NCBI GenBank assembly: GCA_026419785.1
Contig: JAODTK010003632.1
Location: 204,153 to 268,152 of the forward strand
Direction of reading: 5' to 3'
From: Sclerodactyla briareus
Taxonomy: Eukaryota > Echinodermata > Holothuroidea > Dendrochirotida > Sclerodactylidae
Length of the DNA: 64,000 nucleotides
The notes beneath the pieces are model-generated. The model made no database searches, was not told where the DNA came from, and saw only the letters and a list, made by a program, of their open reading frames with translations. This document shows positions 181 through 63,085 of the stretch, one piece after another (position 1 is the first letter of the stretch; each line of letters starts with the position of its first letter). A program made the position numbers and the translations under genes.

Positions 181-2120
181 ATGTAATCACACAGTAGGCC
201 CTTTAGTCTGTTTTGAACTCCGCGCTCTAATTTAAAACGGTTCGAAGGAATGGGCAACTTGCGAGTGGCATTGTATATTAATTAACATAGTAGTGGAAAA
301 CGACTATTTTGTTGTCGAAGTGAATCGAATTACGGTCCAGCGATAGCCTATTCCTTTGAAAATCACATCCAGCGATCGCTTACTACCGATACTGTCACTG
401 TGTAGACGTGGCACTAACTTGGCAAGACGCAGCTATTATATACAGATATAATTTTTAATTTCTCGGAACGTTTAGGAAAACTGTCATTTAATGTTTGAGC
501 CCTAAAGGGCATTAAAAAAATGGGCTTAAAATTGGAACAAATTTTGGGTAACTGTACGGGCGTGGTATACTTGTCATGACGTTATTCGAATCCTGAGGAT
601 TTGTTCCTTGAGTGTACAAGGTAATCGTTTGCCTCTGACTGGACCTGTTCTTCGTACGATACGGACGTTTTTTCTTACACGGCAAAATCACGGTTCGCTA
701 GTTGTATCTATCACACATAAATCCTTCGGGAATTTCGGGGAAAGGTGACGAAACGTATGCCATGTTGTCATGTCAAGATGTCGTTGCCGTTAACTGCCTG
801 CACGTTAACGTGACAGCATAGTTTGTTCATAAGACGAGTGTTTCTTCTGACGCAGCACTATTGCAATTGATGGCGCTCTTTAAGAACTCTGCAGAGAATT
901 ATAATATTTTCATCACAGACAGACAGGATAGTAGCGTATCTGTCAATGGTGGATGGGGGAGGCGTGGTGGAAGGGTCCTCCGGAAGAAAAGGGTGAAAAT
1001 ATCGGGAAGGATGTCGACGATGTATGGCGAATGGAGATGATAAAAGGGGGGGGGGGGGGTGGAATGGGTACACGAGAAACATAGGCATTGGAACCAAAGG
1101 GGACGATATAACTCCCGAAATTCTGGTAAAAATCACAGCCCCCCTCAACTCTCCAACTGAAAGTTTCAACAATACATGCGCATTCTCCGGCTGTTCGTTG
1201 TCTGGCATAATGTGGAACGACTTTTCTATCGGACTATTACACGATGTTTGTAGTAGAAAGATGACTAAATGAATCGAGTGCCATAAGACTGTACAGCACT
1301 TAACTACCTTCTCTAAATCGAGTTAATCTAAAAAAACAAGCTACATTCCCAAGTGAGGTAATGACGGAAAACGCAGCGGAAAACATACGATAAATTGTAT
1401 AGAGCTTCAACGATAAATAATCCCGAGCTGAGTAAATATCAAAAGTTAGAAAAGAACTATTCCACAAAATAACCGAATCAGCGCCCTTTTTCTTTGTAGC
1501 TGGGCGCTTCAGCCATACAAAAAAAACTTGGTATTATTTTGGCCCAAAATGAAATAAAATGTAATATAGTGTAACCGGCCCTAGTGATATTTTTGTTTTT
1601 TCATTGACGTTGACTTCAGTTCCCCTATATGATTCACTTCCTCAAGTTCAAATCGTGTAAACATTTCACGTACACAACTTAGCCAAGTCCGTTATGTGTT
1701 TCCGCTTGTTTTGTTTATTTTTTTTTTTTTGTTGAAGAGTTGAAAAAACGATACATTTATGAAAACGCGATTGTATAAGGCAATCGGAATTCCGGATGCA
1801 TTGACATATAAATACCAATGTATGTATCCAAGCTATTAACAAAAGATCGAAGTTTTACACACAAACATATATGATATGAGTTCGGACTGTACATAGTGAC
1901 ACATAGTGACAGCATGACACCCAGTCAGGTCAGCAAAAAAGAGGAACCTGCTCACTGACATTTGTTGATGTTGGTGATATCTCTGACTTTGTATACTGGG
2001 CAAGAGTGTTGCCTCGTTTGGTAGCGCGCTCCAAAGAATCTTTCAAATAGGTGTCAAGTACAAGAATGAATATGTAATATAACCAGTTGTTAATAAAACA
2101 GTCACCCAGGTAATTGACAC
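181..2120. other. No gene seen
   Basis: I see no recognisable protein homology, RNA gene or intact transposon. The 116- and 82-residue open frames around 858-1272 overlap on opposite strands, are low in complexity and cover a run of 14 G (1046-1059). A short direct repeat of ACATAGTGAC occurs near 1893-1912. Confidence 0.5.
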
Positions 2121-2124
2121 TACG

Positions 2125-2900
2125 GCAGATGATTCTGTGACAGTGGAACTGCTCCTTGTTTCAGTGTGATCGTGTGACAGTGGAAGCTGTCTCCTTGTTT
2201 CAGTGTGATCGTGTGACAGTGGAACTGCTCCTTGTTTCAGTGTGAATCGTGTGACAGTGTAAGCTGCTCCTTGTTCAGTGTGATCGTGTGACAGGGAAGC
2301 TGCTTCCTTGTTTCAGTGTGATCGTGCGACAGTGGAAGCTGCGCCTTGTTTCAGTGTGATCGTGTGACAGTGGAGCTGCTCCTTGTTTCAGTGTGATCGT
2401 GTGACAGTGGAGCTGCTCCTTGTTTCAGTGTGATCGTGCGACAGTGGAAGCTGCTCCTGTTTCAGTGTGATCGTGCGACAGTGGAAGCTGCTCCTTGTTT
2501 TCAGTGGATCGTGTGACAGTGGAAGCTGCTCCTCGTTTCAGTGTGATCGTGCGACAGTGGAAGCTGCTCCTTGTTTCAGTGTGATCGTGGTGACAGTGGA
2601 AGCTGCTCCTCGTTTCAGTGTGATCGTGTGACAGTGGAAGCTGCGCCTTGTTTCAGTGTGATCGTGTGACAGTGGAAGCTGCTTCCTTGTTTCAGTGTGA
2701 TCGTGTGACAGTGAAGCTGCTCCTTGTTTCAGTGTGATCGTGGTGACAGTGGAAGCTGCTCCTTGTTTCAGTGTGATCGTGTGACAGTGGAAGCTGCTTC
2801 CTTGTTTCAGTGTGATCGTGTGACAGTGGAAGCTGCTCCTTGTTTCAGTTTGATCGTGCGACAGTGGAAGCTGCTCCTTGTTTCAGTGTGGTCGTGCAGC
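2125..2900. repeat. 38-bp minisatellite, about 20 copies
   Basis: The core is TGTGATCGTGTGACAGTGGA followed by AGCTGCTCCTTGTTTCAG, 38 bases in its full form and repeated head to tail about twenty times. Copies differ by GTG/GCG substitutions and by many one-base length changes, for example CTCC against CTTCC and TTTCAG against TTTTCAG. The last copy decays near 2895 into unique sequence. The short open frames over its right edge are read-throughs of the repeat. Confidence 0.9.
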
Positions 2901-3154
2901 TAGTAAGGGATCGGTAGAGGTGAATTGTGCAATTACTGTATGCTATGCTATATACGGGTTGGTAGAACGTTCGGCCTTCGACTGCTGAGAGTTTCATCAG
3001 GCATTTCTGTTCTTGCCAGCTTGTTAAGGAGATGGGTTGACTTGGAATTGTTATGGCATGGCAGGGCTGTTTCATCAATAACAGTGAGTGCGCTTGGGTT
3101 TGAATAAATTTGTAGTTTCAGTCGATGTCTCTGTTGATCTGGCAAGTACCATAA

Positions 3155-3550
3155 GGCCGGGATTCCATAGATGCGTATGCGTATGTGAAAAATCGCCGAT
3201 TTACGTGAACTGAGCGGGGGCTAGTGTTTGAATATGTGCTATTTAGTTTGCAAAGATAGATATTGGTCCCACGGAAGCCAAAAAATCATAAATAAAGGCA
3301 AACCAACACTGAATAGGCGAATAAGCACATGTACCAACGCGTATGCAGATGCGTATCACCGCGATTGAATTCTATGAAATAGCTTCCTTAAAAAGCCAAA
3401 CAACGACAATATGCATGGGCAGCTGCCTTTTTATGGTCTTTTCGCCTACACTTATAGTGTTTTCTCTCCTGAAACACACGTTCGTTTTCGTAAATATGTG
3501 ATTTTCGCATCCAGCCCGGATTACGCATACGCATCTATGGAATCCCAGCC
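3155..3550. mobile_element. PIF/Harbinger-type MITE, 396 bp
   Basis: The left end GGCCGGGATTCCATAGATGC continues GTATGCGTA. The reverse complement of the right end reads GGCTGGGATTCCATAGATGC and continues GTATGCGTA, giving a terminal inverted repeat of about 29 bases with one mismatch. TAA stands directly before the left end and directly after the right end. A 3-bp TWA-type target duplication with ends starting GG is the usual signature of PIF/Harbinger elements. The interior is AT-rich and encodes no transposase, so this is a non-autonomous element. Open frames inside it (3372-3641) are not genes. A related right end lies near 13.5 kb. Confidence 0.85.
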
Positions 3551-3559
3551 TAAGCCTCC

Positions 3560-6455
3560 CATGCGGGTCCTTCTTCAAATCTACAATGTTGTCCTGAAGT
3601 TTTACTGTAGTCATTCCTTTTCCATATCTTGTTCTCCCTAACTAGGGCTCAAACGCTGAATCTCTTCATACACATTGTCTAACCAAGCCGAATAGACGTT
3701 ATAATTCCAGATCTGTGGTTCATGCTCATTATAGGCATACGGAATCTGTATCTGTTGATGACTGTGAAAACATCTCGCGCAGGGCACAGACGCGGTAGAT
3801 GCAGCAATTGGTGTCTGTAATATATATCAAATCTCTTCTATTTATTCTGGTCCTAAAAATTTGGCAGAATGGACTCTCTAATGATAGCAGGCAGTGCACT
3901 CCATTAGACTACCGTTATTGGAAAACAAATAGTACAGAATAACTCCGATAATGTCCAGTATATCTCTTTGTATAATAGTAAGATCCAATTCGAAAAATAA
4001 ACATTTAAGGCTAACCTTGAGTCAATGTTTGAACCGCCTAGTCAGTCATCAGCCCTCACAACAAGTTATTACGACTTATCAATGTCACTTCCACAAACTC
4101 GAACAGAATTATGCTCCCCGAGTCGGGTGGAAACATTATTCCCGTTCGTGTTGTATAACTCATGAAATTCCAATTCAAACACCGACTCGAGGTACGCCTC
4201 GTTGAACTTCAAATCTTTGTACCACTCACGTGATCAAACGAGACTTGAATGAGAGTGAAACCCTAGTCCCGAAAGACACTCTCTGCTAAGACAGAGCCTC
4301 CGGGCTGTTATGCTCCATTTCCCTGCCGAGAAGCAAATGTTCGAGCAGACGCCCACCCTGCTTTCTGAAGAATAGGCGAGACAGACATGGACCTCTGCTT
4401 CGCTCTTGACACCGAGGTGCTATGCGCTCTAAAACCTAGAAAGATCAATGCCTGACTTTGGCATTACTTCTTCTGTCCATCTTAAGATGGTGTCTCCTGA
4501 CACCGGAACAAAAGGTTTAACATAACTTGAATACAGTTCAGAATAGCCTCCCCTTACATCTTATGCGTTCAACATCCAGTATACACAAATTAAACACAAA
4601 TGTTCCTGTTAGGAGGAAATTCTTTTAATATCCACTGTGGGTGATGGCCTGTATACGTTACCCAGGCCGGCTCTGTTCAATCAGGCTGGGGAAACAAAAA
4701 ATATTTCTTTCCCTTCTGTCTTATTACATTGTTAATACATGATGAGTCCATCTTGTGGAGAGATTGTGGTCTTGCTGCATTAGTCGGAGACACTAGCAGG
4801 CCTAACTTTGATGTCAACAATCGTTAGGCTCTGTCTTCAAGTGGCGGAAGGGTCCATAAATAACTCACAACTGCACCTACATGTTATTTTGTCAGTAGTC
4901 AGGATAAAGTGGCGAGTCACTTGCATGCCCTGAACCAATCTATGTGGTTGTGCGTATGCATAGACTACTGTCCCTCTGTCCTACCCGGCCCTTGGTGCTC
5001 GCTCATGAGAGGTTATGTGTGTAGATCTGTTGACGTGTATGGTGTTTGCTGACCTTTCGTGGATGGTTGTGTATGGTGAGTTTTGTGATGAGCTACTTTC
5101 GGTATTTCAAATTTCACGGCTGCTTGACCTGGTGTTTTGCCCTGTCCCCGCATCGCAGTTTTCCTATGTGTGCGCATCCTTGCGTTCTTTATTGCACTAT
5201 CATTTTTCGCATGCAATAATGAGGCTTGTATACAGCACTGTAGTACAGCATTTCACATGTTTTTTCCCCCTGATATTCACTATGGTTATGTTGCTTGTAG
5301 CAATGTAGGTGCTATCGACGTGCCTTGTATTTGCTTGTGCCTGTGGTGTGTATTTCCAGTTAATTCGTAGCATCTTTTCCCCCCTCTTTACTTCATAGTG
5401 GATTGCGTATTACGGGAGCAATAAAGCATGGTTTCTTTAAATCGTGTCTCGATTCTGCTGATTCGGTTGGTGGTGTTCTAGTTCCTAAATGTAAAGCGTG
5501 CCGCACTCTACCGCGGATGCAATATTGTCCCATTTGGCTTCCATTGTCCTTGTTCCCAGTGTACCAACTCCGCTTCCTCCATCTTTCCTCTCATCTCCGG
5601 TCTGAGATACACTTGGCAATGTAACTTATTCAAGACTCTTTCTTTTTGGAGAAGGTATCCAATTATGGCACTCTTCACAGTCACGCTCCTCATTTTTACT
5701 ACAAGAATCTGTAGTCCTATAAGAAAACTCGTTATAATTTATCCGGTTCATAACGATTGAAGAAAACCCATCTAACATGTCTAATGTTAAAACTGTAGAT
5801 GTCCACTAATTAGATACCAATGTTCCCCGCGCATTTTGTTTACACCCCTCCCCCCCCTCCCTTTTTGCTCTCATCCTTTCATATCTCCAGCCGCAGCCAT
5901 CCCTCTAAGCGTATTTCTCTCGGTTGTTACTGATTATCATTCTTGACAGCGCCACACCACCATTCCTACCTGCACTAGTATCAGTCACAGAGCGCCACAG
6001 GCTATTCGCTGCTGCATTGCAAAAGCAGCTTACTTGGATATAGACCTTGCGGCATGGCGTATGAATATCGATTCCATTCCAGGTATGGTAGTTGCCATAT
6101 GGCACTTTTGATGTCCATAGTTGCAGTATATTCCAAGCTATGAAAAATGAACCAAGAACATTCTGAGGCGGAAACCAGAAGAGCAGTAATCATTAATGTA
6201 CCGGTAGTTGATGTGTCGGATCATAGCTGAGGGTGGGGTGATAGGACTGCCGGCTTGTTCAGGTTATGGTGCACTGATCACGGTTGTCAACCGACTGTGT
6301 CAAGATATTGCTGCACTGACGCGGGATTTTCAAGGGGCACATTAGTCATTTTTCCCGTCTATTGGCATTCCATGATTAACTTAGTTGTTTTCAGACACTT
6401 CCGATTTTGAGAGGTTCCCGGACAACTCCCACACAAACAATCCCCACCTGGACAA
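3560..6455. other. No gene seen
   Basis: The stretch holds only short open frames of 60-97 residues with no motif I recognise. A 12-base inverted match, AAGACAGAGCCT near 4293 and its complement near 4827, is too short to call an element. A C-rich run lies near 5847-5863. Confidence 0.4.
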
Positions 6456-6458
6456 TTC

Positions 6459-6514
6459 CCTCCCAAACGTGACCTTAATATTTAGACCCAATTGTCCGGT
6501 CACGTTTGAGAAGG
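6459..6514. repeat. Inverted repeat hairpin, 16-17 base arms
   Basis: The left arm CCTCCCAAACGTGACC and the right arm GGTCACGTTTGAGAAGG are nearly perfect complements, separated by about 23 bases. I do not see transposon ends around it. It may be a structured relic or a coincidence of a decayed fold-back element. Confidence 0.5.
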
Positions 6515-6519
6515 TTTTG

Positions 6520-7780
6520 CGATGGTGCACAAGTAGTCATGACACTTATCACCACACAGACCCTCCTCTCCCAGGTCCAGCTTGAATCTGAAGAGATCGT
6601 GTAGCAGAACGATGAAGAATCGTTATAGCGTGACCGGCCCTTTAGTCTAATATTCTTCCGAATGGGAATCACATTGTCCATTCTACATGCCACCATATTA
6701 TACTCCTGTTAATGGAGGCGCTGTCAGGAGCACAGCGAACGGTTTCACGCTGAATTAACTTTTGCATAGGCGCTTCAGTACAGCGTGCCTGAGGAGTGAT
6801 ATGTTCTGCATATCAATTCCAAAAGGGCGCCATCGATTACAACAGCGGTGCGTCAACAAATGCTGTTATCAACAACATTAACAAGACAATTATCAGTTAC
6901 TGCAATAACTTGGTGTGTCTAGTACGTTCCGTCAATTCTTCCAAAATAGTTATGTGTATTTAATGGAACTAGCGAACAGTGATTGTGCTGTTTAATGAGG
7001 AACGACTGTATCGTATAACATTGATCAAAATGGAACCGCTCCAGTCAATTGTAAACTTCTGGCCACTAATGCGACTAGAGCATCACGCCTGCATAAATCC
7101 ACCCGCGTAAGTATCATTTCAACTGTACCCAACAATGGTTCCTATTATAGTCCTTGAACTGTAATGTTTAGTGGCTCGTCCGAACAACCTAGGCCTATTA
7201 TCATCTCCAAATAAGGGTCCAAATATATCTCGATTCAAGAACAAGATATGAAATGTGTGGATGTGTGGTAAATACCGCAAGGTGAACTTTTGCGACAGAT
7301 CAAGTAGCCTCATATATGTAAATGCAAACTTTTTCATCTGATTAACTGCAATAATATTCATTTTTAAAAGAACAGCACTACCAGTCAGTATTTTATTTTT
7401 GCCCCGAGATTATTGCAGTTGGGCGGAACCACGTTTCGGACTGCGCCTAGCTGGGAGGGCCTATGGTCCCGACACCTTGTCTCTAATTTTCCTCTGATAC
7501 CATACACACTGTTTCCGGGAGGTAATCGTCAGCTTGTATGCACATTTAACATCCTATACGCAGTGGCGTTCCTCGGTGGGGGTGGTTACAAAATGGCGAA
7601 TCACAGAAACTGCTTGAAAACACACAGGAAGTATGCAAAAATTTGAGTACAGTCGGTTGATGCCTAATGCACTTTGATCATTAAGCCTTCATTCTGATCA
7701 TGTGGACTCTTCTTCTATTTCTTAAAATCCACGATGACGGCCTCATAGGAAGTTTGCAAAATATTTTGGAAAATCCAAAT
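6520..7780. other. No gene seen
   Basis: No open frame here has recognisable homology. Toward the right end the sequence grades into the CCAAAATGG-rich repeat described next. Confidence 0.4.
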
Positions 7781-19907: not shown

Positions 19908-20084
19908 ATTAGGATGATTGACGTCTTCCTAATCAGATTATATCAGAATAATTTGAGTGAAGTCGACCATACTATGTTTAAATAACTTAATTCAAGACAA
20001 TCATACATACTAGAATTATTGAAGCGAAGTTCATACTGTATCAGAATAATTAGGCGAAAGATTGTACTGAACTGCCGACTCAAG

Positions 20085-21100
20085 TCACTGAAAACGGTTT
20101 CAATGGGGAGTTACTCAAGTCACTGAACTGTTTCAATGGGGAGTTACTCGAGACACTGAACTGTTTCATTCGGAGTTACTCGAGTCACTGAACTGTTTCA
20201 ATGGGGAGTCACTGAACTGTTTCAGTGGGAAGTTACTCGAGTCACTGACTGTTTCAATGGAGGGGGGGGGGGGGGGAGTTACTCGAGTCACGAAACTGTT
20301 TTGGGGAGTCACTTGAGTCACTGAACTGTTTCAGTGGGAAGTTACTCGAGGCACTGAACTGTTTCAATGGAGGGGGGGGGGGAGTTACTCGAGACACTGA
20401 ACTGTTTCAATGGAGGGGGGGGGGGGGGGAGTTACTCGAGTCACTGAACTGTTTTGGGGAGTCACTGAGTCACTGAACTGTTCAATCGGGAAGTTACTCG
20501 AGGCACTGAACTGTTTCAATGGGGAGTTACTCGAGACACTGAACTGTTTCAATGGGGAGTCACTGAGTCACTGAACTGTTTAATTGGGAAGTTACTCGAG
20601 TCCACTGAACTGTTTCAATGGTGGAGTTACTCGAGTCCACTGAACTGGTTCAATGGGGAGTCACTTGAGTCACTGAACTGTTTAATTGGGAAGTTACTCG
20701 AGTCACTGAACTGTTTCAATGGAGGGAGTTACTCGAGTCACTGAACTGGTTCAATGGGGAGTCACTGAGTCACTGAACTGTTCAATCGGGAAGTTACTCG
20801 AGTCACCGAACTGTTCAATGGAGGGAGTTACTCGAGTCACTGAACTGGTTCAATGGGGAGTCATTGAGTCACTGAACTGTTTAATTGGGAAGTTACTCGA
20901 GTCACTGAACTGTTTCAATGGAGGGAGTTACTCGAGTCACTGAACTGGTTCAATGGGGAGTCACTTGAGTCACTGAACTGTTTAATTGGGAAGTTACTCG
21001 AGTCACTGAACTGTTTCAATGGGGGAGTTACTCGAGTCACTGAACTGTTCAATGGGGAGTCACTGAACTGTTTCAATGGGAGGACACTGAAGTCACTGTA
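20085..21100. repeat. GAGTCACTGAACTG minisatellite with higher-order units
   Basis: The basic unit of 30-50 bases is GAGTTACTCGAGTCACTGAA, then CTGTTTCAATGGG. Variants alternate (GGTTCAATGGGGAGTCACTGAG, TTTAATTGGGAAGTTACTCG) so that a larger unit of roughly 100 bases repeats between about 20600 and 21060. Three units carry G runs of 11-15 bases (20262-20276, 20372-20382, 20415-20429). XhoI-like CTCGAG occurs in nearly every unit. Degenerate GAATTATTGAAGCGAAG-type sequence flanks the left side. The 74-residue frame at 20719-20943 is a repeat translation. Confidence 0.9.
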
Positions 21101-42285: not shown

Positions 42286-42689
42286 GAGGGAGGGGGGGGG
42301 GGGGGATGCCCATATCCTAGAGGGGTCCGATGATTTCGCGCTTGGCACAAACCACCCTACGTGTGTGTAACAGTAGCTACATTTTAGATAGGTCGATTAT
42401 TTTATGGTTACGGTATTTTCGTTACTTTCCTAAACCCTTTTTTTTCGAAGGTTGTACTCGTGGCAACAGATAGAGTATGGAGACGTCGCGAAAAATTCTA
42501 GCGCAACCTGCCAGTTGTAGTTCATAGAACTGGCAATAATTCATAGAGATAGTGGTACTTCTAGCATGCGAGTCGGCACTCTTCCGAATGTTTTTCGGCA
42601 CTCTCGAGTCAGTCCCTGCGCTTCTTTTCAGCTGTGGGTGAGCAGCAGCCTACACGTCCATCAGTCTATGCCGTAGGACCCCCCGTAGG

Positions 42690-44140
42690 AAATTGTGAAA
42701 AGTCAATATTTTGGCCAATTTGGGCTGGGGAACACGATAACTCAACCCAGCCTGGATGGTTGAAGCTCATACGTGGTATGGGTGTTCCCATGATGAGGAC
42801 ATGAACCAAGTGTTTGGGGTCAGGTAAGAGGACGTCTGAGGGGCATCCAAAGGTCAAGTCTGAAACCTTGGAACACGATAAGTCCAGATGGTTAGTTATG
42901 ATCGGGTGAAAGTTTTGTGTGTAGCTTCTTATGGGGAGAACGGAACCCTATTGTTTTTGGTAAGGATCGCGGTTGGATGGATTTGGTCAAAAAAGGAAAT
43001 TGGTGAAATTCAATATTTCGGCAAATATTTGCTGGGAACATGTACCTACCCCCACCATGAATGGATGAAGCTCATACATCGTATGTGTGTTTCCATGATG
43101 AGTGCATGAACCTAATTGTTTTGGGGTCAGGGTAGAGGTAATCTGAGGTCACCACAAAGTCAAAGTCTGATAACATGTGAACACGATAAGTCCAGAATGG
43201 TGGTCTGATCGGGTTTGAAATTTGAGTGTGTTAGCTTTCTAATGAGGATTACAGGACCCCTATTGTTTTTGTCTAGGTCGGGGTAATTTTTGGTCAAAAA
43301 TGGAAAATTTGTGAAAAGTCAATATTTTGGCTAATCTGACGTGTGAACATGATAAACTCAACCCCACTGGATGGATGAGCTCATACTGGTATGTATGTTC
43401 CCAAGATGAGTGCATGAACTAATTTTTTGGGGTCAGGTCAGAGAACGTCTGAGGTCACCCCCAACAGAGATCAAAGTCCGAACACCTTGTGAACACATAG
43501 TCAGAATGGTTCGTCTGATCGGGTTGAAATGGTGTCTGTAGCTTTCTCATGAGAGTACAGGAAGCCTATTGGTTTGGTCTAGGTCGGGTTGAATTTTTCG
43601 TCAGAAAAATGGGAAATTGGGAAAAGTCAATTATTTTAGCTAATTCTGACTTGTGAACATGATACACTCACAAACCCCCCCGGGAGGGATTGAATGAAGC
43701 CCTAATCTGTATGTGGTGCCCCATGATTGGTGCATTTTTGGGAAAAAAAACCCCCTTATTTGTTTTTGGGGTCAGATCAGATGTCATATGAGGTCACAGA
43801 GGTGAAGCCTGAAAGCCTTGTGAACACGAAATCCAGAATGGTGGTCTGATCTGAGTTGAAATTTGGTGGGTAGCCTTCTTATGGGGAGTACAGGAACCCT
43901 TTGTGTTTGGGTTATTGAGGTTGATTTTTGGTCAAAATGATTTTTTTTTTTGAAAAGTCAATATTTTGGCCAATTTTGGCTTTTATCACGATAATCGACT
44001 TCAACTGGATGGATGAAGCTTCAACTGCGTACGGGGGTTCCCCAGGAGAGAATGAACCTTATGATTTGGTACCAGGTTGGGGTCATCGGAGTTCACCAGA
44101 GGCAAAAGTATGAAACCTTTAAATTTAAAATTAAAAATTT
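42690..44140. repeat. 310-bp satellite array, five units
   Basis: The phrase GTGAAAAGTCAATATTTTGG heads units near 42697, 43002 (degenerate), 43311, 43620 and 43950, spacing 305-330 bases. Each unit then carries GATAACTCAACCCAGCCTGG, GGATGAAGCTCATAC, ATGATGAGTGCATGAAC, GGGGTCAGGTCAGAG, a GAACACGATAAGTCCAGAAT stretch and TCTGATCGGGTTGAAA. Units differ by many small indels. Open frames across it are not genes. The same monomer appears at 32.9-33.6 kb. Confidence 0.9.
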
Positions 44141-45870: not shown

Positions 45871-46299
45871 GGGTCCCGAAGCAGGTCTCAGACACCACAC
45901 ACATTAACGCCACCTGACTACATACCACAAAGAACAAGAGTACCTGCCACAGTAGCTCACCTGTCAGATCGTACTAGTTGAGTGTAGGAAAATGTGCACA
46001 AGTTTCAAAGATACCTTAAATACGTATCGTCAGTCAAAAACAGGCTGTGATAGTCCAACTTACATGATTATCAAAACTATTCTATAGAAAGAGAAGCCGC
46101 CCCAAATGTTCTAACAGATTGGAGTAGAAGTCGCGTGACCATTTGAACAAAATGGCCCATATGCCCATGCCAATGGTAATAGTGACCCAATTAATGATCA
46201 TCTGATTAATTCGATAGTAAATAGAAGCGCGGACCGTTGTTACCATTATTGGTCAATGAGTTTCATACACATTGTTGAACGTTAGGAGAAGAAGCCTTT

Positions 46300-46730
46300 G
46301 ATGATCTTTGACATGGAATTCTTGAACACCCTATATGTGCTACTGATCGATGATTTCAAATGACAACTTCATTGGTCAGCCAATCTTTGGGAGGAAAAGT
46401 TTGTTTAACCCCCAAAATGACCTCTGCTGACCATAAATTACCCTAGAGACCTGGACCACAAATTTCCTGAACACCCGAGTATGTCCAGTGTCACCAATAA
46501 TACTGCCCAAGTTTCATGAGCATCCGATCTTGAATGCGGGACGGAGAAGCCTGCTCTGACCAAAATAGCTGGGATGACCCTCGTAGATGACCTTTGGACC
46601 TCAAATTCCTAAACACCCCGTATGTACCATTAGTCAAAATAATATGACCAACTATCACGGTCATTTCAATTAAAACTCAGGGTGAAGCTGCGAGCGAAAG
46701 GTAACTGTATTCTGGCTTGATAGACGTCAC
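46300..46730. repeat. GAACACCCC satellite, left part
   Basis: Units of about 145 bases are headed by TTCTTGAACACCCTATATGT (46319), TTTCCTGAACACCCGAGTAT (46464) and TTCCTAAACACCCCGTATGT (46606), with CCAAGTTTCATGAGCATCC between. The series stops where a LINE relic begins and resumes after it. Confidence 0.7.
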
Positions 46731-46734
46731 TTCA

Positions 46735-47260
46735 ATTTCCTTGATTAGGATATTGTTGTCAGGTTGTAAGCAGCTTGGTGAGACCCCCCTGGAGGAGTCT
46801 GTCCAAGTATGGAAATCAATATTTTCTCGAACGAAAGCAGGTAATGGAAAACATTAGCGGGAGGGCCGCTAGATTAATTCACTGTCTTAGAGATTTACCT
46901 TACGAGGAGGCATCTCAATCAAACTCGATGAAATGAGGCGAATTCGCTGTGATTTGATTGAGGTTTTTAAAAAGGTTTCTAGGGCATTTTCTTCCACTAT
47001 TTTGAGTTTTCCAAAGTTACCACCAATAGGGGTCATTGCCTCAAGCTTCGTTGTGGTAAACGTTGTAGATTGGACAGATCGGAAATATTTCTTCGCCAAG
47101 GGAGTTAATTAATGAGTGAATAGCCTTCCTGAAGAGGTTGTTCTGTCTAAGAGTGTGAATGCATTCAAGTCTTGATTTTTTTTCAAGAATTGTGGGCGAA
47201 GTCTTTGAGCATCTCGGTTGTTCTTCTCTTGCGGATGTGTGGCTTTGGGGTCTCTCATGA
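46735..47260 (+). mobile_element. LINE fragment, ORF2 C-terminus, nested in satellite
   Basis: Successive frames give RAARLIHCLRDLPYEEA (near 46865-46915, the RRATRxIxxLxxLPYEER block), RRIRCDLIEVFK (near 46933), RKYFFAKGV (near 47080) and NSLPEEVVLSKSVNAFKS (47121-47175). This is the C-terminal tail of a CR1-like LINE, with a stop after FKS at about 47176. One or two frameshifts and a stop near 47110 interrupt it. Lacking the polymerase, it is a 5'-truncated insertion. GAACACCCC-type satellite lies on both sides, so it inserted into a pre-existing array. Confidence 0.85.
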
Positions 47261-47309
47261 GGATTTGTCCTTCCTGACCCCTTTCACTCAAGTAAACTAA
47301 CTAAATAAA

Positions 47310-47620
47310 CTAAGAAGCATTTTGTTTGTTTGACCCCCAAATAACCCCTTGGCAAACAACAAAAATGACCCCTAGGTGACCTGTTGACCTAGATTCCGAA
47401 CATTGGTATGTACCTTAGGTCACGAAATACTGACCAAGTTTCATGAACATTCCACTTGAACTGCGGAGAAGAATTTTGGATTTTTCACAAAATGGCCCGA
47501 ATCGACACCTAGCTGACCTTCGCCCTCAACTTCATGAACACCCCGATGCCCCTCCACTCAGTAATCATTGTGATGAGTTTCATATGATCGAACCACACAC
47601 ATGTAGGAGGAGAGCAATTT
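47310..47620. repeat. GAACACCCC satellite, right part
   Basis: TGACCAAGTTTCATGAACAT (47432) and CTTCATGAACACCCCGATGC (47530) continue the unit series seen left of the LINE. ACCCCTAGGTGACCTGTTGA (near 47370) matches the GACCCTCGTAGATGACCT-type phrase of the left part. Confidence 0.65.
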
Positions 47621-47624
47621 GAGA

Positions 47625-56219: not shown

Positions 56220-57890
56220 AAGAAGAGAAAGGTAGGTAGGTAGTCGCTGGATTTCACTAGCATTCAAGAACAATCACAAGCATGGAATATAGCGGAACAA
56301 TGAATAAATCCAAACTAGACGTTCATATTTTTGCCTGCCAGAAATGTTATTACATGGTATTTTGTGCAGTTCTATTGTATCTGATTGAAAAGACCTTGCA
56401 TGCAATGCAGTGGCAATTTCGAACAAAACACTGCCCTATAACCGTTTGTATCTCATCTATCCTACATGTGATCCGTTTTTCACGACCAAGTTTGTAGCTG
56501 GTTTACAAAATTTCATTTACATGGGTCTTATTCATCCAAATGGATTCCTGCGGTTCTTGGCGAAACAATAGGTTCATAACTTAGAGCTAGAATCTCAACT
56601 GGATGCTGACTGAGCATTGTGGAATGAATATGTGATGATAGGTTTGGTATCTGTGGCCTGATTCTCTTCATTACAAAAGAACTCTTACCGCTCAGTGAAT
56701 ACACTATCAGGTCCATTGAAGCTCAGGGGTGTGTGAATGCTACTCTTGTTCCTGGGGTTATAACAAGAACAATGTTGGTGAGACTCGATCGAGTCATCAC
56801 AGAAGCACCAACGTCGATCAGATCACTCTGCCTGCTGGGCGGCAGAGGAATTATTTCAATAGTATTGAGTTCCCATATCTGCTAAAACATCATTTGAGAT
56901 GGCTCCAGTACAGCACTTAGTGTACAGCAGGATGGTCCAGCCTCTTCCTATTTCATTCTGGAGGGGAATGTGCTATAGCATCAAATACCTCAGAAAAAGT
57001 CTGACGCTCAGCTCCTGAAAATCAAGATGATATATTAACAACCCCAAGCTACCGTTTATGCGGCATACAGGAAGGAAATCTGATGGCTAATTACCAATCA
57101 CGAAGCCAACTGTTATTTTTGCAATAACAGTCGTGGTCAGAGTAAAAACATACAATTTTTTGTCGGCTAATTGCTCGTTTGCTGCGTCTTCAGTAAACGC
57201 AATACTTTTTGAACGCGAATATAAGGTTGCGTGAGCTTTTAGAAGTTTATGTTTAAACGCGCAGATCCGGCTTTTCAGTTATACACCCGCTTCAGGAGTG
57301 TTTGTACTGCCTCGACGAAATACAGACGGGCGAAACGACGCGTCCCTCGTTGCCTTGGTGAACGTCATGTTTCACAACGGCAGACCCTCGGTTAGGCTGT
57401 TCAGCATGGGTGGGTTGTATTGCGTCTCCGTGGAAGTATGCACCGCATGCACTGCCAATATCTTGGTGTATGATACCACTAAAATTTACTTCGTTCGAAC
57501 TAACCAATAGACTCTAGTGCTTATTACGTTTAGAGATAAGAAGATATAGATCTAGAGATATAGATATCGTTAATCGTTTGGGTTAAGTCTTAATTTGCGG
57601 GTTGTAGTAGAATAGGAATAAACTACGCAGGTCGACGTTAACTGGTGAATTAAACGTTTCGACTCTGCATTAGAACTCAATCACGAAATCGGCTGCGCCT
57701 TGTCCTTTATTTACCTAAATTAAGTGTCTCAACTGTTTTTCACCAGTAAAGTTTCTCCCAGTTGCAGTTTATTAATAAATAGTGTCCCCCAATAGCCATC
57801 TACTACATCACTGATGGTGTCCTGCCAGCATTTTGCAGATATTACCCAGTAATAAGTGTATGCTTGTAGCAATGTACCACCCATAGAGAC
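56220..57890. other. No gene recognised; GC-richer block at 57.25-57.5 kb
   Basis: 57240-57510 is richer in CG dinucleotides and has open frames of 70-71 residues on both strands with no homology. It might be a first exon or promoter region for the minus-strand exon at 56 kb, but there is no direct evidence. Confidence 0.3.
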
Positions 57891-57895
57891 TGCTA

Positions 57896-60792
57896 CAGGC
57901 ATGCAACAGGCTCCATGAAAAAAAGTAGGAGAAAAAGTAGGAAGGAAATTTTCGAAAAGTAATAGGAGAAAAATAGGATTTTGATCGGAAAAGTAGGAGC
58001 AAGTAGGACCTTCATTGATACTCAGAAGTAGTTCTCTGTCAACACTCACCAGCAGGATTCATCAGCAGAATCATGTACCTTGCACTCACCAGGACATACC
58101 AGGCCCAGATCTGAAAACTCGAACACCAATGGTGCTGTAGCTCAAACCGCACAAATGTAACAAGAAGAATGTGTTAAATGTTCAAGATCATGAGCCCAAG
58201 AATGGCGTTCCCCAAACAATGGCCTATTGTGCCCCTGTAACAACTTTGACATTTAACTTCATATGCCACGGATGTCATAAGCAGTCTATAAACATTGTTG
58301 CTCAGTTTGGTCAACGTCCATCAAAGAATGGCCAATTTGAGAGATAAAAAGGCAATTTCAACACAGTGGCCTTTTGGGTGGCCCTTTCATGACCCCCCAA
58401 AGGTCGATGAACATAGGGTCCAAGTTTGGTCAAAATCCATCAAAGAATGACTGTTTTGCTTCATTTCATCAGATATGTTACTGTTTCAATTCTAATGACA
58501 TTATATGTTTCATCCAAAATCTGCAAACCAGCTGAAAAGAACATTTTGACACAGTTTCAAGAAAATCTAATGTATTTGTAGGAGATACTTTTGGAAATTA
58601 TACACATAATTGCCCCTTTATTGACCTTTGACCCTGCTCTTCAAAAAGCCAAACATGTCCCATGGGTTTGGTTGACATCCCTCACAGATTGACTGTCAGG
58701 GGGCCAAAAAGGCAATTGTTGACACACTGGATAGAGTAGATAGGCTGTAGGCCCAGTGGGTACTCGACCAATATTTTTGAATAGCCTGTAGTATGGGCTA
58801 TTCATCATTATGATCGAACATCAGCACTGGGCACCAAAATATGTAGGAGGAGAAGCATTTTGCGTGATAGCACATGGGCCCTCAGGCTCACACTTGGGTC
58901 TCAAGTCCGAAATTCCTGAGAAGTTGGAACCCTGGCAGGCAGTTAAGATACGGCTATTAGAAGTGTCATTATGACCAAACATCAGCACTGACCTGTCATT
59001 TAAAATTTGTAGAAGCATTTTCATTGAACAGTGATTATACATGATGGGCCTCCAGGGCCCACATTAGGCCTTGAGCTAGAAGTTCGAAAACACCCCTGAT
59101 GGACCACTAACCAAGGAGCATTACATGTAACTTTGAAGAAAATCATTGACGCATGTGGAGTAGATGCATTCAAAGCTCATTGCGTGAAATATCATAAAAT
59201 GGGCCTCAAGCCAAGTCGGACATTAGACCAAAGAATCATGAACACCTCAAAGGTACGGCTATTAGACCATCATTATGACCAAACATCAGCACTGTGCAAC
59301 TAAATATTTAGGAGATACAAGATTTTGCGGTATTTCACATAATGGGCCCTATGGCCCAAACTGGGCCTTGGGCCCAAAATTCCTGACATCTCCAATGGCC
59401 CTCTACCCAAGGACCATTACATGCACTCTGAAGAGAATCAATGGAAGCTTGTGGGAGGAGATTCATTTTGAGCACCATTGTGTGAAATATCATAAAATGG
59501 GCCTTCAGGTCCAAGTCGGAATCAGATCAAAAATCCTGAACACCTCAAAGGTACGGCTATTAGACCATCATTATGACCAAACATCAGCACTGTGCAACTA
59601 AATATTTAGGAGATACAAGATTTTGCGGTATTTCACATAATGGGCCCTATGGCCCAAACTGGGCCTTGGGCCCAAAATTCCTGAACACCCCCAATGGCCC
59701 TTTACCCAAGCAGCATTACCCCTCTGTAACTATTGACAAAAAGAAATTATTGAAGTGTAGGAGAGATGAATTTCAAGTAATCCTAGGTGTGTGTGAAATT
59801 CATAAATGAGCCCTCGGGCCCAAGTGGGACCTGGGACAAAAATTCCTGAACACCCCAAAGGTATGGCCGGATAGATCATCAGTTTGACCGAACATCAGCA
59901 TTTGCACCAGAATTTGTAGGAGGAGATTACATTTGAAATTTACAATAATGGCCTATATTTGCCCTTAATAAACCGTGGACCGAACCTTCAACAAGGTCAG
60001 ACAGGTATCAGGGTCAAGGAACATTGTTGTGTGTCCAGCAAGAATGACTGTTTGGGAGGCAAAAAGGCACTTGTTGACACACAGGTACGGACAGACAGAC
60101 AGGGAAGATAGAAGATAGATTGACATACAATAGATTCATAGCTTGGTTTGAGCTAAAAAACAATATAGGCCTATCACACATTCATTCCTGTTCTTCTCGT
60201 TATCATCACATCAATAGAGAATGTGCACTCGGTCACGCAGGAGGGACAGAAACTGAAAACCCTACGGTATGTAACTGCACATAGCTTAGGTGAGTTGTAG
60301 TACATGCCATGATTATTTCAGTGATTGATACCTCACCGTCTTCAATTATTCAAAAGGAGATTGGACAATACTGGAAGGATCAAGAGAATTTATACCAATT
60401 CAAGCGACTTGAAACTTACTGACGAAGACTAACCAAGGATCTGAGTACGTGGCTAATAGCCGTGATCAGAGAGGATCTGTAGGTACGTAAAGTGTTACTT
60501 GAACAATATGTAGTAAATGTATACATGTCATTTGCATCTTTATGCTGGAGCTTGTAGTCTGTCTGGAACCTGCAATGACTAGCTACTTCTGTGAATTACA
60601 ATTTTGGTGTTTATTGCCTGGAAATTTTGGATGGAACATAGGCCTACTCAGGATTCTTTTCATTACAACAAACCTTTAGAAAAAGTAGGAGAATGTAGGA
60701 TTTTTCAGGAAAAATGTAGGAGAAGTAGAGACCGGCAAGAACAATCAAAAACGTAGGAAGTTAGAAAAAAGTAGGAGCTGTTGGCAGCCTGT
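57896..60792. mobile_element. hAT-like 2.9-kb element carrying a tandem array
   Basis: The left end CAGGCATGCAACAGGCTCC and the reverse complement of the right end ACAGGCTGCCAACAGCTCCTAC are similar inverted termini. GACTGCTA occurs at 57888-57895 and 60793-60800, an exact octamer directly outside them. Both ends then carry AAAAAGTAGGAG repeats (57917-58020 and 60679-60780). No transposase-like frame is present between them. The middle (58690-60085) is a tandem satellite. The structure fits a non-autonomous hAT-type element that has captured or amplified internal repeats. Termini CAGGC and 8-bp duplications agree with the MITE at 19759. Confidence 0.7.
58690..60085. repeat. 150/298-bp higher-order satellite inside the hAT-like element
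   Basis: CATTATGACCAAACATCAGC recurs near 58808 (variant), 58967, 59269, 59567 and 59875 (variant), with spacing 159, 302, 298 and 308. Each 298-300-bp unit is a dimer of two related halves, both with ATGGGCCT...GGGCC and CCTGAACACC phrases. 59239-59386 and 59537-59684 are identical over 148 bases by eye, while sequence on either side has diverged. Boundary phrases GGCAATTGTTGACACAC (58711) and GGCACTTGTTGACACAC (60066) bracket the array. Confidence 0.85.
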
Positions 60793-60799
60793 GACTGCT

Positions 60800-62540
60800 A
60801 TCTGAAACTTCAGTACAGTGTGCATGACATGGGCCACAATAACAGGAAGAGCTGTAAAAATTACCCTGGGGGGACAGTTTTTTCCACATTTTCTCAGCAG
60901 ATATTTCACACAAAATAAATAATCAATTAGGCCTCCCCCGAATACAAACAAGAGAAAACAACATCTATAATACATTCTATAAAAGATCCCTAGATAAAAG
61001 GGCAGTAATGGAACTATGATCAAAGATATTAAAGGGCAGCAATGGAACTATGCATCAAAATAAACTTGTGGAGAATTATACTCCTTGAGAGAAACACCAC
61101 AGACACCCCATGTCCCGGATATGTGAGTAATCAGAACTAGCCAATAGGCATGTGATTACCTATGTGCTGAATTCAACTCAAGGCAGTAGGCGTGGGTAAG
61201 GTAAATGAGACTGATTAAAGATCTAGTCAGGATTGAATCTCTGGCTGCATTACCAAGACCAGTGCCTACTAGCAGATGGCCTCACTTTGTCCATTTCCTC
61301 TCTGAGAAGAAATCCTAGATTGCCACTCTACAAAATGCCCACTGCTTTGATGGGTCATACAGATGTTGCACTGTTGTCCACAAGATGTCATCAAATGACC
61401 ATATGATCACTCAACGCAGCGTGGCGGTCAAACCTGCAAAAAGGGGGTAGAGAATGCTGCGGCCCTAGCCAACTTCTGTCAATGTCAGACCATTGGGCCA
61501 GTGCTGCCTGTCAGCAACCTGTCAAGCCTGAAGAGAGTTTGAATCATGTATAGGACTGGTCAGCTTTACCGATGTGCCACTGAACAAGGCACCTGAACTC
61601 CATACTACCTACCTACCAACGGGACCTGTGGTAAACCTATATTTGCACTTGAAGAGTACCATGGGCATAATGCTATCAGAGATGACCGCCCCAAAATGGA
61701 CCATATCGGCACTCAGCAATCAGAGATTGTCAATGGGCTGTATCGGCACTCTGATATCATATTCACTCTGAACATCTACGCCCTTCTATTCTCCAACAAG
61801 AGTTAATAGGCTACGGGATGTTTCCTTGTCACATGTGATTGTTGGTGAGGTGCTGACTCACCTCACAGAGTACATCCATGATATCACTAGAAGGCAGAGC
61901 CTTCAACAAATTAAAGGCAAGATTTACTGTTTCTCAAACAGCTACATCCCAGTTTCAGTATTGTGTTAGGGTTCAATTGAGTTCCAGTTGTGGCGCCTCT
62001 TAGATGTTGTCGACTCCATGGGTATATCAAATGTTGACGAGCAATAGCTTGGCTTCTAGATGCTGGGTTTTTTATTTGGGACTATCCCAAATTGACCCCC
62101 GTTCCTTACCGGAATTGTGGTGTCCTCCGTGGGGGTCATATCTGACATCGGGGGGCTTCCAGAGGCTACCCTCCTCCTACCCCGGAATCCTGCAAGAAAA
62201 GAATTCTATAGGGTTTTGCATCAGACAGTCACAATTATATTTAGTGATGGGCCAGGGAGAAGTGCCGATATAGGGGAGGGTCGCAGTATGTTAATGTGTG
62301 TAGTGCAGGAGTCGCAACATATGATCACAAAGGGATATTGGGGGTCATCCGAAGCGTAGCATTCCACGTACGAGAAAAATTATGCAGAAATTCCGAAATT
62401 CTGGAATTTGCTGACTACCTAGAATTCCCCCCCCAATCCTTGTTTTACCTCCTCTGACTCTGAGAACCGAGTACAAAGACTTTTTGCCCATGTGATTCCC
62501 TGACCAACGACATTGCACAAATTCAATTGGTTGCAGACCA
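60800..62540. other. No gene seen
   Basis: Frames of 65-92 residues show no homology. No recognised repeats. Confidence 0.35.
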
Positions 62541-62544
62541 CATT

Positions 62545-63085
62545 ACATGTATACTTAACGGTTATGGTTTAACCCATGTGTAGGGGGTACCGGACAATTA
62601 CATGATAACTTAACGGTTATGGTTGAACCATGTGTAGGGTACCAGAAAAACAGTATACTTAACGTTATGGTTGATACCCATGTGCAGGCGGTACCAGAAA
62701 ATTACATGTATAATTACAGTTATGTTGTTGAACCCATGTGTAGGGTACCAGCAAAATGACATGTAGACTTAACAGTCTGGTTGTTGAACACCATGGAGTA
62801 GGGTTACCGGAAAATTACATGTATAACTAACAGTTAGGTTGAACCCATTGGTAGGGTACCGAACATTACATGTAAACTTAACGTTATGGGTTGAAAACAC
62901 ATGTGTAGGGTAAGACAATGACATGTATAAACTAACGCTTCGGGTTGAACCCATGTTGTAGGGTACCGAACATTACCATGTTATAACTTAACGGTTATGG
63001 GTGAACCCATGTGGAGGGTACCGGACAAGTACATGTCATAACTTAGCGGGTTGTTGTTGAACCCATGGTAGGGTACCAGAAAATT
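62545..63085. repeat. 55-bp minisatellite, ten copies
   Basis: The unit is ACATGTATAACTTAACGGTT, then ATGGTTGAACCCATGTGTAG, then GGTACCGGAAAATT. Ten copies are countable, each with small indels (51-58 bases). GGTACC is present in most. The 61-residue minus-strand frame at 62769-62954 is a translation of the repeat. Confidence 0.9.

Follow-up and report, generated by a model that had tools for sequence, protein, structure and literature searches.

Tandem repeats carried by HINEs, non-autonomous Helentron-like elements, are a known route of repeat spread, for which Cg_HINE of the oyster Crassostrea gigas is a published precedent (PMC7492417). According to the available part of that report, Cg_HINE combines a 5' subTIR of 11–12 bp and a complementary IR with a microsatellite, mostly of 4 nt (GTCY-like), central satellite-like repeats, mostly of 140–180 bp, and a 3' subTIR plus palindrome; its arrays are short and have one orientation, and its copies are dispersed, some of them within other repeats (PMC7492417). 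More generally, the accessible text on HINE and DINE-1-like elements describes subTIRs, terminal palindromes, a microsatellite, central repeats, T-rich or TT targets and a non-coding sequence, in elements reported from mites, insects, molluscs and a sea urchin (PMC4067079). Internal-array expansion in Helitron/Helentron elements is given, in the available portion of a review, as a common example of satellite origin (PMC12628747). Among the matches listed in a literature search for echinoderm or dimeric HINE satellites, none was a closer case than PMC4067079.

Here, we describe a 2.9-kb unit (57896–60792; 2,897 bp) in a stretch of 64,000 nucleotides of Sclerodactyla briareus (the window; G000:C2294:204153-268152). 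The genome searched is a 319.5-Mb assembly of 3,171 contigs. The unit is a composite of two mobile elements, one inside the other, and we are highly confident in the following reading of it: a HINE with a satellite-like array lies inside an old, internally deleted TIR transposon.

Two mobile elements within one pair of flanking repeats

The outer borders at 57896 and 60792 are those of a real TIR element with an exact 8-bp flanking repeat (Table 1). As the first-pass annotation of this DNA had stated, the octamer GACTGCTA directly borders the unit on both sides, and its occurrences at 57888 and 60793 are the only ones on the + strand of the window. The annotation also held good in finding no transposase: six frames of 57896–60792 gave no Pfam match above the cut-off (best F-box, E 0.037). 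An Rfam search of the window likewise gave no match. The annotation's inverted termini are valid for the outermost ~18–19 bp only, with one extra T (60792) between the right inverted repeat and the octamer; the AAAAGTAGGAG repeats that lie beside both outer ends (the annotation's CTCCTACTTTTT; GTAGGAG) have the same orientation at both, and so are not inverted termini. What had to be given up is the view of the 2.9 kb as a single, hAT-like element.

Table 1. Features of the outer element, the nested element and the array (positions in the window)
Feature	Position	Strand	Basis or remark
Outer left flanking repeat, GACTGCTA	57888–57895		exact match to 60793–60800
Outer left terminal inverted repeat, CAGGCATGCAACAGGCTCC	57896–57914	+	common to outer family
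Outer element, left part, ending in the A-run target (58114–58117)	57896–58117	+	alignment with 20 copies
HINE (non-autonomous Helentron-like), 2,038 bp	58118–60155	-	empty site in 18 of 20 outer copies
HINE native 3' end: palindrome (58122–58136) and 11-bp subTIR (58138–58148; TAGCTCAAACC on + strand)	58118–58148	-	16 left ends aligned
Central array, eight ~150-bp monomers, A A B A B A B A	58803–59999		pair A-B = 298-bp dimer
GACA/GATA microsatellite beside native 5' end	60090–60119		sequence
HINE native 5' subTIR (GGTTTGAGCTA on + strand)	60145–60155	-	exact inverse of 58138–58148
Outer element, right part	60156–60792	+	pairing with copy L012
Outer right terminal inverted repeat, CAGGCTGCCAACAGCTCC on - strand	60774–60791	-	sequence
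Outer right flanking repeat, GACTGCTA	60793–60800		exact match to left octamer

A genome search with the first 201 bp of the outer left part gave 127 candidate places, and 40 of these were scored (81–100% identity with the window's own place included, 81–93% at the 39 others). The best 20 of the 39 non-self places were fetched with ~6.5 kb downstream of each (L009–L028; L026 ends early at a contig end, and only 1.7 kb of it was read). In 18 of these 20 copies the site is uninterrupted: the left 222 bp run directly into the sequence found in the window from ~60156 onward, showing that 58118–60155 is an insertion nested between two outer ends. By a stricter 150-bp test, the outer continuation is present in 13 of the 20. 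There are two exceptions to the empty site, namely (i) L023, which is internally deleted, and (ii) L009, which departs from the family at the same A-run. L009 is the outer copy closest to the window's; it enters other sequence at the A-run (~1715–1730), suggesting that the A-run of the outer element takes other insertions too. It also contains HINE-body pieces, without the array, 1.3–2 kb downstream.

Near 60530–60551, the window copy is without ~1.9 kb of the outer family's middle, a decayed coding relic; positions 217–593 and 2505–2733 of copy L012 pair with positions 2277–2635 and 2656–2896 of the window element. The 2.74-kb body of L012 aligns as one piece with L013, L016, L017, L018, L022 and L024 (77–84%), and the remaining outer copies align to it in pieces or partially. 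The relic lies on the opposite strand and is interrupted by stops in 88 of 98 match rows, with only L012 spanning 171 aa free of them. No Pfam match was obtained in six frames of L012 (only a stray one at E 0.05) or in the coding-strand frames of L013, L018 and L024, and no hAT profile was matched. The window's own contig has a further match to the relic ~5 kb upstream, at G000:C2294:198848-199051.

Flanking repeats were compared in 14 outer copies: that of the window and 13 of the 20 fetched (seven were dropped, with the right end missing or degenerate). Identical repeats of 6–8 bp flank six of the 14 (6, 6, 6, 7, 7 and 8 bp), while the other eight have none longer than 5 bp; in a control, 1 of 182 mismatched left/right pairs gave such a repeat, placing the observed ones beyond chance. 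The outer element is thus a real TIR transposon, and its membership of the hAT superfamily is unproven. It shares with hAT elements the 8-bp flanking repeat of the window copy, together with CAGGC-type ends that we take to resemble hAT ends. It differs from them in that the flanking repeats of the family are mostly 6–7 bp, as opposed to 8 bp as a rule, and in that its decayed relic matches no hAT profile; for these two reasons, the label hAT-like is not established. Dada was considered for its target duplication of 6–7 bp and dropped, because the available text on Dada reports that no terminal inverted repeats were found and that small-RNA genes are the target (PMC3706591).

The nested element has, as read from its sequence, the anatomy of a HINE, and would be a non-autonomous Helentron. 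We assign it to the HINEs because of its subTIRs, palindromes, GACA/GATA microsatellite, central repeats and T-run target. It is inserted with its native 5' end at 60155 and its native 3' end at 58118, and profiles of the HINE ends (16 and 10 rows, the window copy itself included in both) match 58113–58331 (E 1.3e-70) and 60087–60164 (E 3.6e-9). The two subTIRs are complementary at 11 of 11 positions, a length within the 11–15 bp expected of HINE subTIRs. Along the minus strand, the order is T-run, 5' subTIR, IR, microsatellite, central repeats, 3' subTIR, palindrome, CTAG, T, the window copy having CTCG where the family has CTAG. A GATA/GACA run lies beside the native 5' end of many relatives, some of which have longer GATA runs; the microsatellite and central tandem repeats are accompanied by no coding capacity.

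When aligned, the left ends begin with CTAGAGCACCAATGGTGCTGTAGCTCAAA directly after an A (the window plus 15 copies, without L032), and the right ends close with AATAGCTCAACCAGCATAGCTGGTTTGAGCTA directly before AAAA (the window plus nine copies, without a doubtful match in L036). At least one A immediately precedes CTAG/CTCG in 14 of the 16 aligned left ends, and two or more do so in 11 (again leaving out L032); two or more A's follow all 10 aligned right ends (leaving out the doubtful L036 match, which is followed by CG). These bordering A's, and the A-run target in outer relatives, correspond to the T-rich or TT targets of HINEs. The hairpins vary in quality. The native 3' palindrome, AGCACCAATGGTGCT, is exact in seven of 16 aligned ends and altered in the rest, and folding of three 3' palindromes was no better than that of shuffled sequences (z -0.5 to -0.9). 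At the 5' end, the IR forms a family hairpin, TAGCTCAACCAGCATAGCTGGTTTGAGCTA (z -5.8 in L033, z -3.4 in L030), which is degenerate in the window's own copy (z -1.7). Compared with the empty site, the window copy shows no recognisable target duplication; the A-run obscures the precise target and would mask a duplication of 1–4 bp.

The array and its carrier

The dimeric 298-bp tandem array of the first-pass annotation is confirmed: Tandem Repeats Finder reports a period of 298 (2.1 copies, 59089–59719, score 1000), and the monomers alternate as A and B. Identity is 98% between A3 and A4, 81% between B1 and B2, and 48–67% between A and B; the outer monomers are divergent (A-A down to 55%, B-B down to 62%), and only the central units fall into clear pair classes. 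Searching the genome with the 298-bp dimer gave 3,975 candidate places, and 40 of them were scored. Adjacent dimer matches on 14 contigs—hand-picked among the scored places, with that of the window included—are spaced 253–308 bp apart (mean 295 for 28 spacings; gaps of at least 400 were excluded). The same dimer spacing at other loci suggests that the A-B dimer arose before these copies spread.

The outer family does not contain this array elsewhere. In the 15 copies whose outer ends were both located (degenerate ones in L022 and L024), no monomers lie between them, nor were any found in the stretch read downstream in the five copies without a right end (L009, L010, L015, L020, L026). The only monomer matches among the 20 copies are those of L013 and L022, outside the element past its right end. 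The genome search for outer ends, arrays and target duplications that the first-pass annotation had proposed recovers the family and its flanking repeats with the array in 0 of 20 fetched copies; the outer termini come almost entirely without the 298-bp repeat, which is close to the outcome that the annotation had named as refuting its reading.

For the left end of the HINE, the genome search gave 1,851 candidate places; the 40 scored are 80–89% identical besides itself. Sixteen stretches (L029–L044), covering 18 of the 39 non-self places, were chosen by this left end alone; C144, C993, C2358 and C606 ranked among the left-end places and were left out of the sample, and the left ends of L033 and L040 were placed by BLAST. 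Downstream of the left end, monomer matches occur in 12 of the 16 stretches, all on one strand with 0 on the other, a count that includes part-length matches and L036, whose far end is unsure. A search with the monomer profile, which was built from the window's own monomers, gave no match in L032, L033, L041 and L044. The nine stretches with both HINE ends contain 8, 2, 0, 5, 9, 9, 8, 0 and 6 monomer matches, and the number of monomers per HINE copy ranges from 0 to 13. The array travels mainly with the HINE. The earlier proposal, that the array moves with the element around it, is therefore right in that a mobile element takes the array to many places, and wrong as to which: the main carrier is the HINE, not the outer element.

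Some related arrangements were seen along the way. In L035 (G000:C2198:147500-151500), three HINE left ends, 95–97% alike, stand in a row at a spacing of ~540 bp. A rolling-circle concatemer was considered; the repeated unit includes ~58 bp of flank, making a local tandem triplication across the element boundary likelier. Within the window, 46121–47623 contains weak matches to the array monomers (best E 7e-6 at 47465–47558), with no HINE ends found there, and is probably an older, broken HINE array. The 64 kb contain four other tandem arrays, at 2136–2897 (38/115 bp), 20078–21066 (33 bp and longer periods), 42688–43670 (307 bp) and 62540–63085 (55/217 bp); the inverted repeats around the 307-bp array are no more than weak.

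A candidate helper was sought through the Rep domain. Helitron_like_N (PF14214) gave three matches at two loci. At one of these, C2413 (L048 = G000:C2413:97000-106900, 2106–6669), a HINE 5' end (~2110) and array monomers, the last of them reaching 5413, are followed directly downstream and on the same strand by a Rep relic (~5598–6669). A search of the + frames of L048:3001-9901 and L054:1-5400 found no helicase there, and the 19.8 kb read showed no HINE 3' end downstream of the relic; the second locus, L049, contains no HINE pieces. The genome search found no intact Helentron, Rep matches being present at the two loci only. The C2413 locus is possibly what remains of an autonomous partner, a lead that falls short of proof.

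Probable recurrent insertion into one A-run

The window's copy is not the only outer element with a HINE in this A-run. A query spanning the left junction (40 rows: 1 own, 1 C2496, 12 confined to the outer side, 26 to the inner side) aligned end to end with C2496, at 80%. One spanning the right junction (40 rows: 1 own, 4 crossing, 28 without inner bases, 7 confined to the inner side) ran across it at C2496, C2437, C2214 and, judging from coordinates, C1193. C1193 was first taken for a composite from these coordinates; its letters show at best a distantly HINE-like start, and it is not counted. In C2496, the HINE 3' end follows the A-run, giving the same order as in the window (outer left end, HINE end, outer continuation), with only ~15 bp of HINE end, and without the hairpin arm, on the right side. 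The 5' subTIR GGTTTGAGCTA precedes the outer continuation in C2496, C2437 and C2214. After GAGCTA, there are A's only in the window, G plus A's in C2496, and 9–12-bp fillers, similar by eye, in C2437 and C2214. These differing letters rule out one junction shared by all HINE-bearing outer copies and, because the junctions differ, insertion into the A-run recurred. The simplest reading is that there were at least two separate insertions; C2437 and C2214 perhaps share one, and the window and C2496 may share another.

The sequence of events that we favour runs as follows. A transposon of an old family (~2.7 kb, with ~19-bp inverted ends and 6–8-bp target duplications) inserted at 57896/60792. The window's outer copy lost ~1.9 kb of its middle, and a HINE came to lie on the minus strand in the outer A-run (a T-run on the HINE's own strand); the deletion may have come before or after the insertion, and the HINE may have arrived directly or inside an already loaded outer element. 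Presumably, an autonomous Helentron supplied the Rep/helicase that copied the HINE in trans, through rolling-circle transposition that took the array along. Arrays would later have grown and shrunk locally. Several observations count against this account: the native 3' palindrome is inexact in most ends and folds no better than shuffled sequences, the window's own 5' hairpin is degenerate, no intact Helentron was found, the A-run obscures the target, and three further outer copies have a HINE at that A-run. One of these three, C2496, has three small HINE variants in common with the window, a pattern not expected from a single independent insertion.

A less likely alternative gives the satellite two vehicles: HINEs would have hit one A-run repeatedly, and some of the resulting composites (C2437/C2214, perhaps also window/C2496) would then have moved by cut-and-paste. 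That the composite moved as a unit, with the outer element carrying HINE and array onward to sites that include the window's own, is rather unlikely. Such movement would fit HINE 5' ends that meet the same A-run in C2496, C2437 and C2214, the similar junction filler of the latter two, and the left flank of C2496, 45 bp of which have no match in the window's 300-bp flank (best 8 bp, E 0.14). It would also fit the shared variants: of the variants private to the window, C2496 carries two of 10 in the inner left end and one of 11 in the outer left part, and both copies have an extra T in CTTGGTTTGAGCTA at the right end that nine other HINEs, C2437 and C2214 are without. However, C2496 has the common letter at most window-private sites (7 of 10 inner, 8 of 11 outer), and two private variants are also shared between ordinary HINE pairs. 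Furthermore, the filler of C2437 and C2214 is absent from the window's junction; the window's outer part is 85–93% identical to 20 copies without a HINE there, as against 78% to C2496; and the window's inner left end scores lower with C2496, a long branch, than with any of 15 other HINEs. Since HINEs favour T-runs, repeated insertion into one A-run is in any case expected. Phylogenetic trees, resting on 213 and 154 columns, neither back nor reject a single window/C2496 lineage: the two are weakly supported sisters in the inner tree (61/76), and their pairing is not rejected in the outer one (p-AU 0.47).

For the nested element, a foldback or MITE-type DNA transposon is a highly improbable alternative to a Helentron derivative. 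Its hairpins and short inverted ends would suit such a transposon, as would the failure of the searches to identify a helper, but the window copy shows no recognisable target duplication apart from the A's, and the layout of its ends—subTIR, IR and microsatellite at one, subTIR, palindrome and CTAG at the other—is that of published HINEs. Scarcely credible is the original idea that the satellite is the own central part of a hAT-like element whose transposase-driven jumps seed arrays: exact octamer and inverted ends do enclose the array in the window, and C2496 repeats the order of parts, but the empty sites rule out the array as part of the outer element as such, elsewhere it sits between HINE ends, and the outer family has neither consistent 8-bp flanking repeats nor a hAT profile match.

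Comparison with published HINEs

The reading that we prefer, a HINE nested in a TIR transposon, adds a further genome in which dispersed satellite-like repeats, here dimers, are carried by an element of rolling-circle anatomy. It also illustrates how nesting can make the clean target duplication that surrounds an array misleading. Where HINEs hit one target repeatedly within a different repeat family, insertion and array change can be followed in natural replicates and, if the two-vehicle reading were true, the array would have a second route of spread, by the outer element.

Set beside the HINE and DINE-1-like elements in the available text of PMC4067079, the nested HINE has all of the subTIRs, palindromes, microsatellite, central repeats, T-rich targets and non-coding character; it differs in that autonomous partners were identified there, as opposed to only a truncated Rep relic here. 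In layout, it is likewise similar to Cg_HINE, as far as the accessible part of that report describes it, in its subTIRs, IR, microsatellite, central repeats, palindrome, array orientation, short arrays, dispersal and occurrence within other repeats (PMC7492417). Unlike in Cg_HINE, the repeat here is an A-B dimer of 298 bp; otherwise, the element agrees with the published HINEs of oyster and fly.
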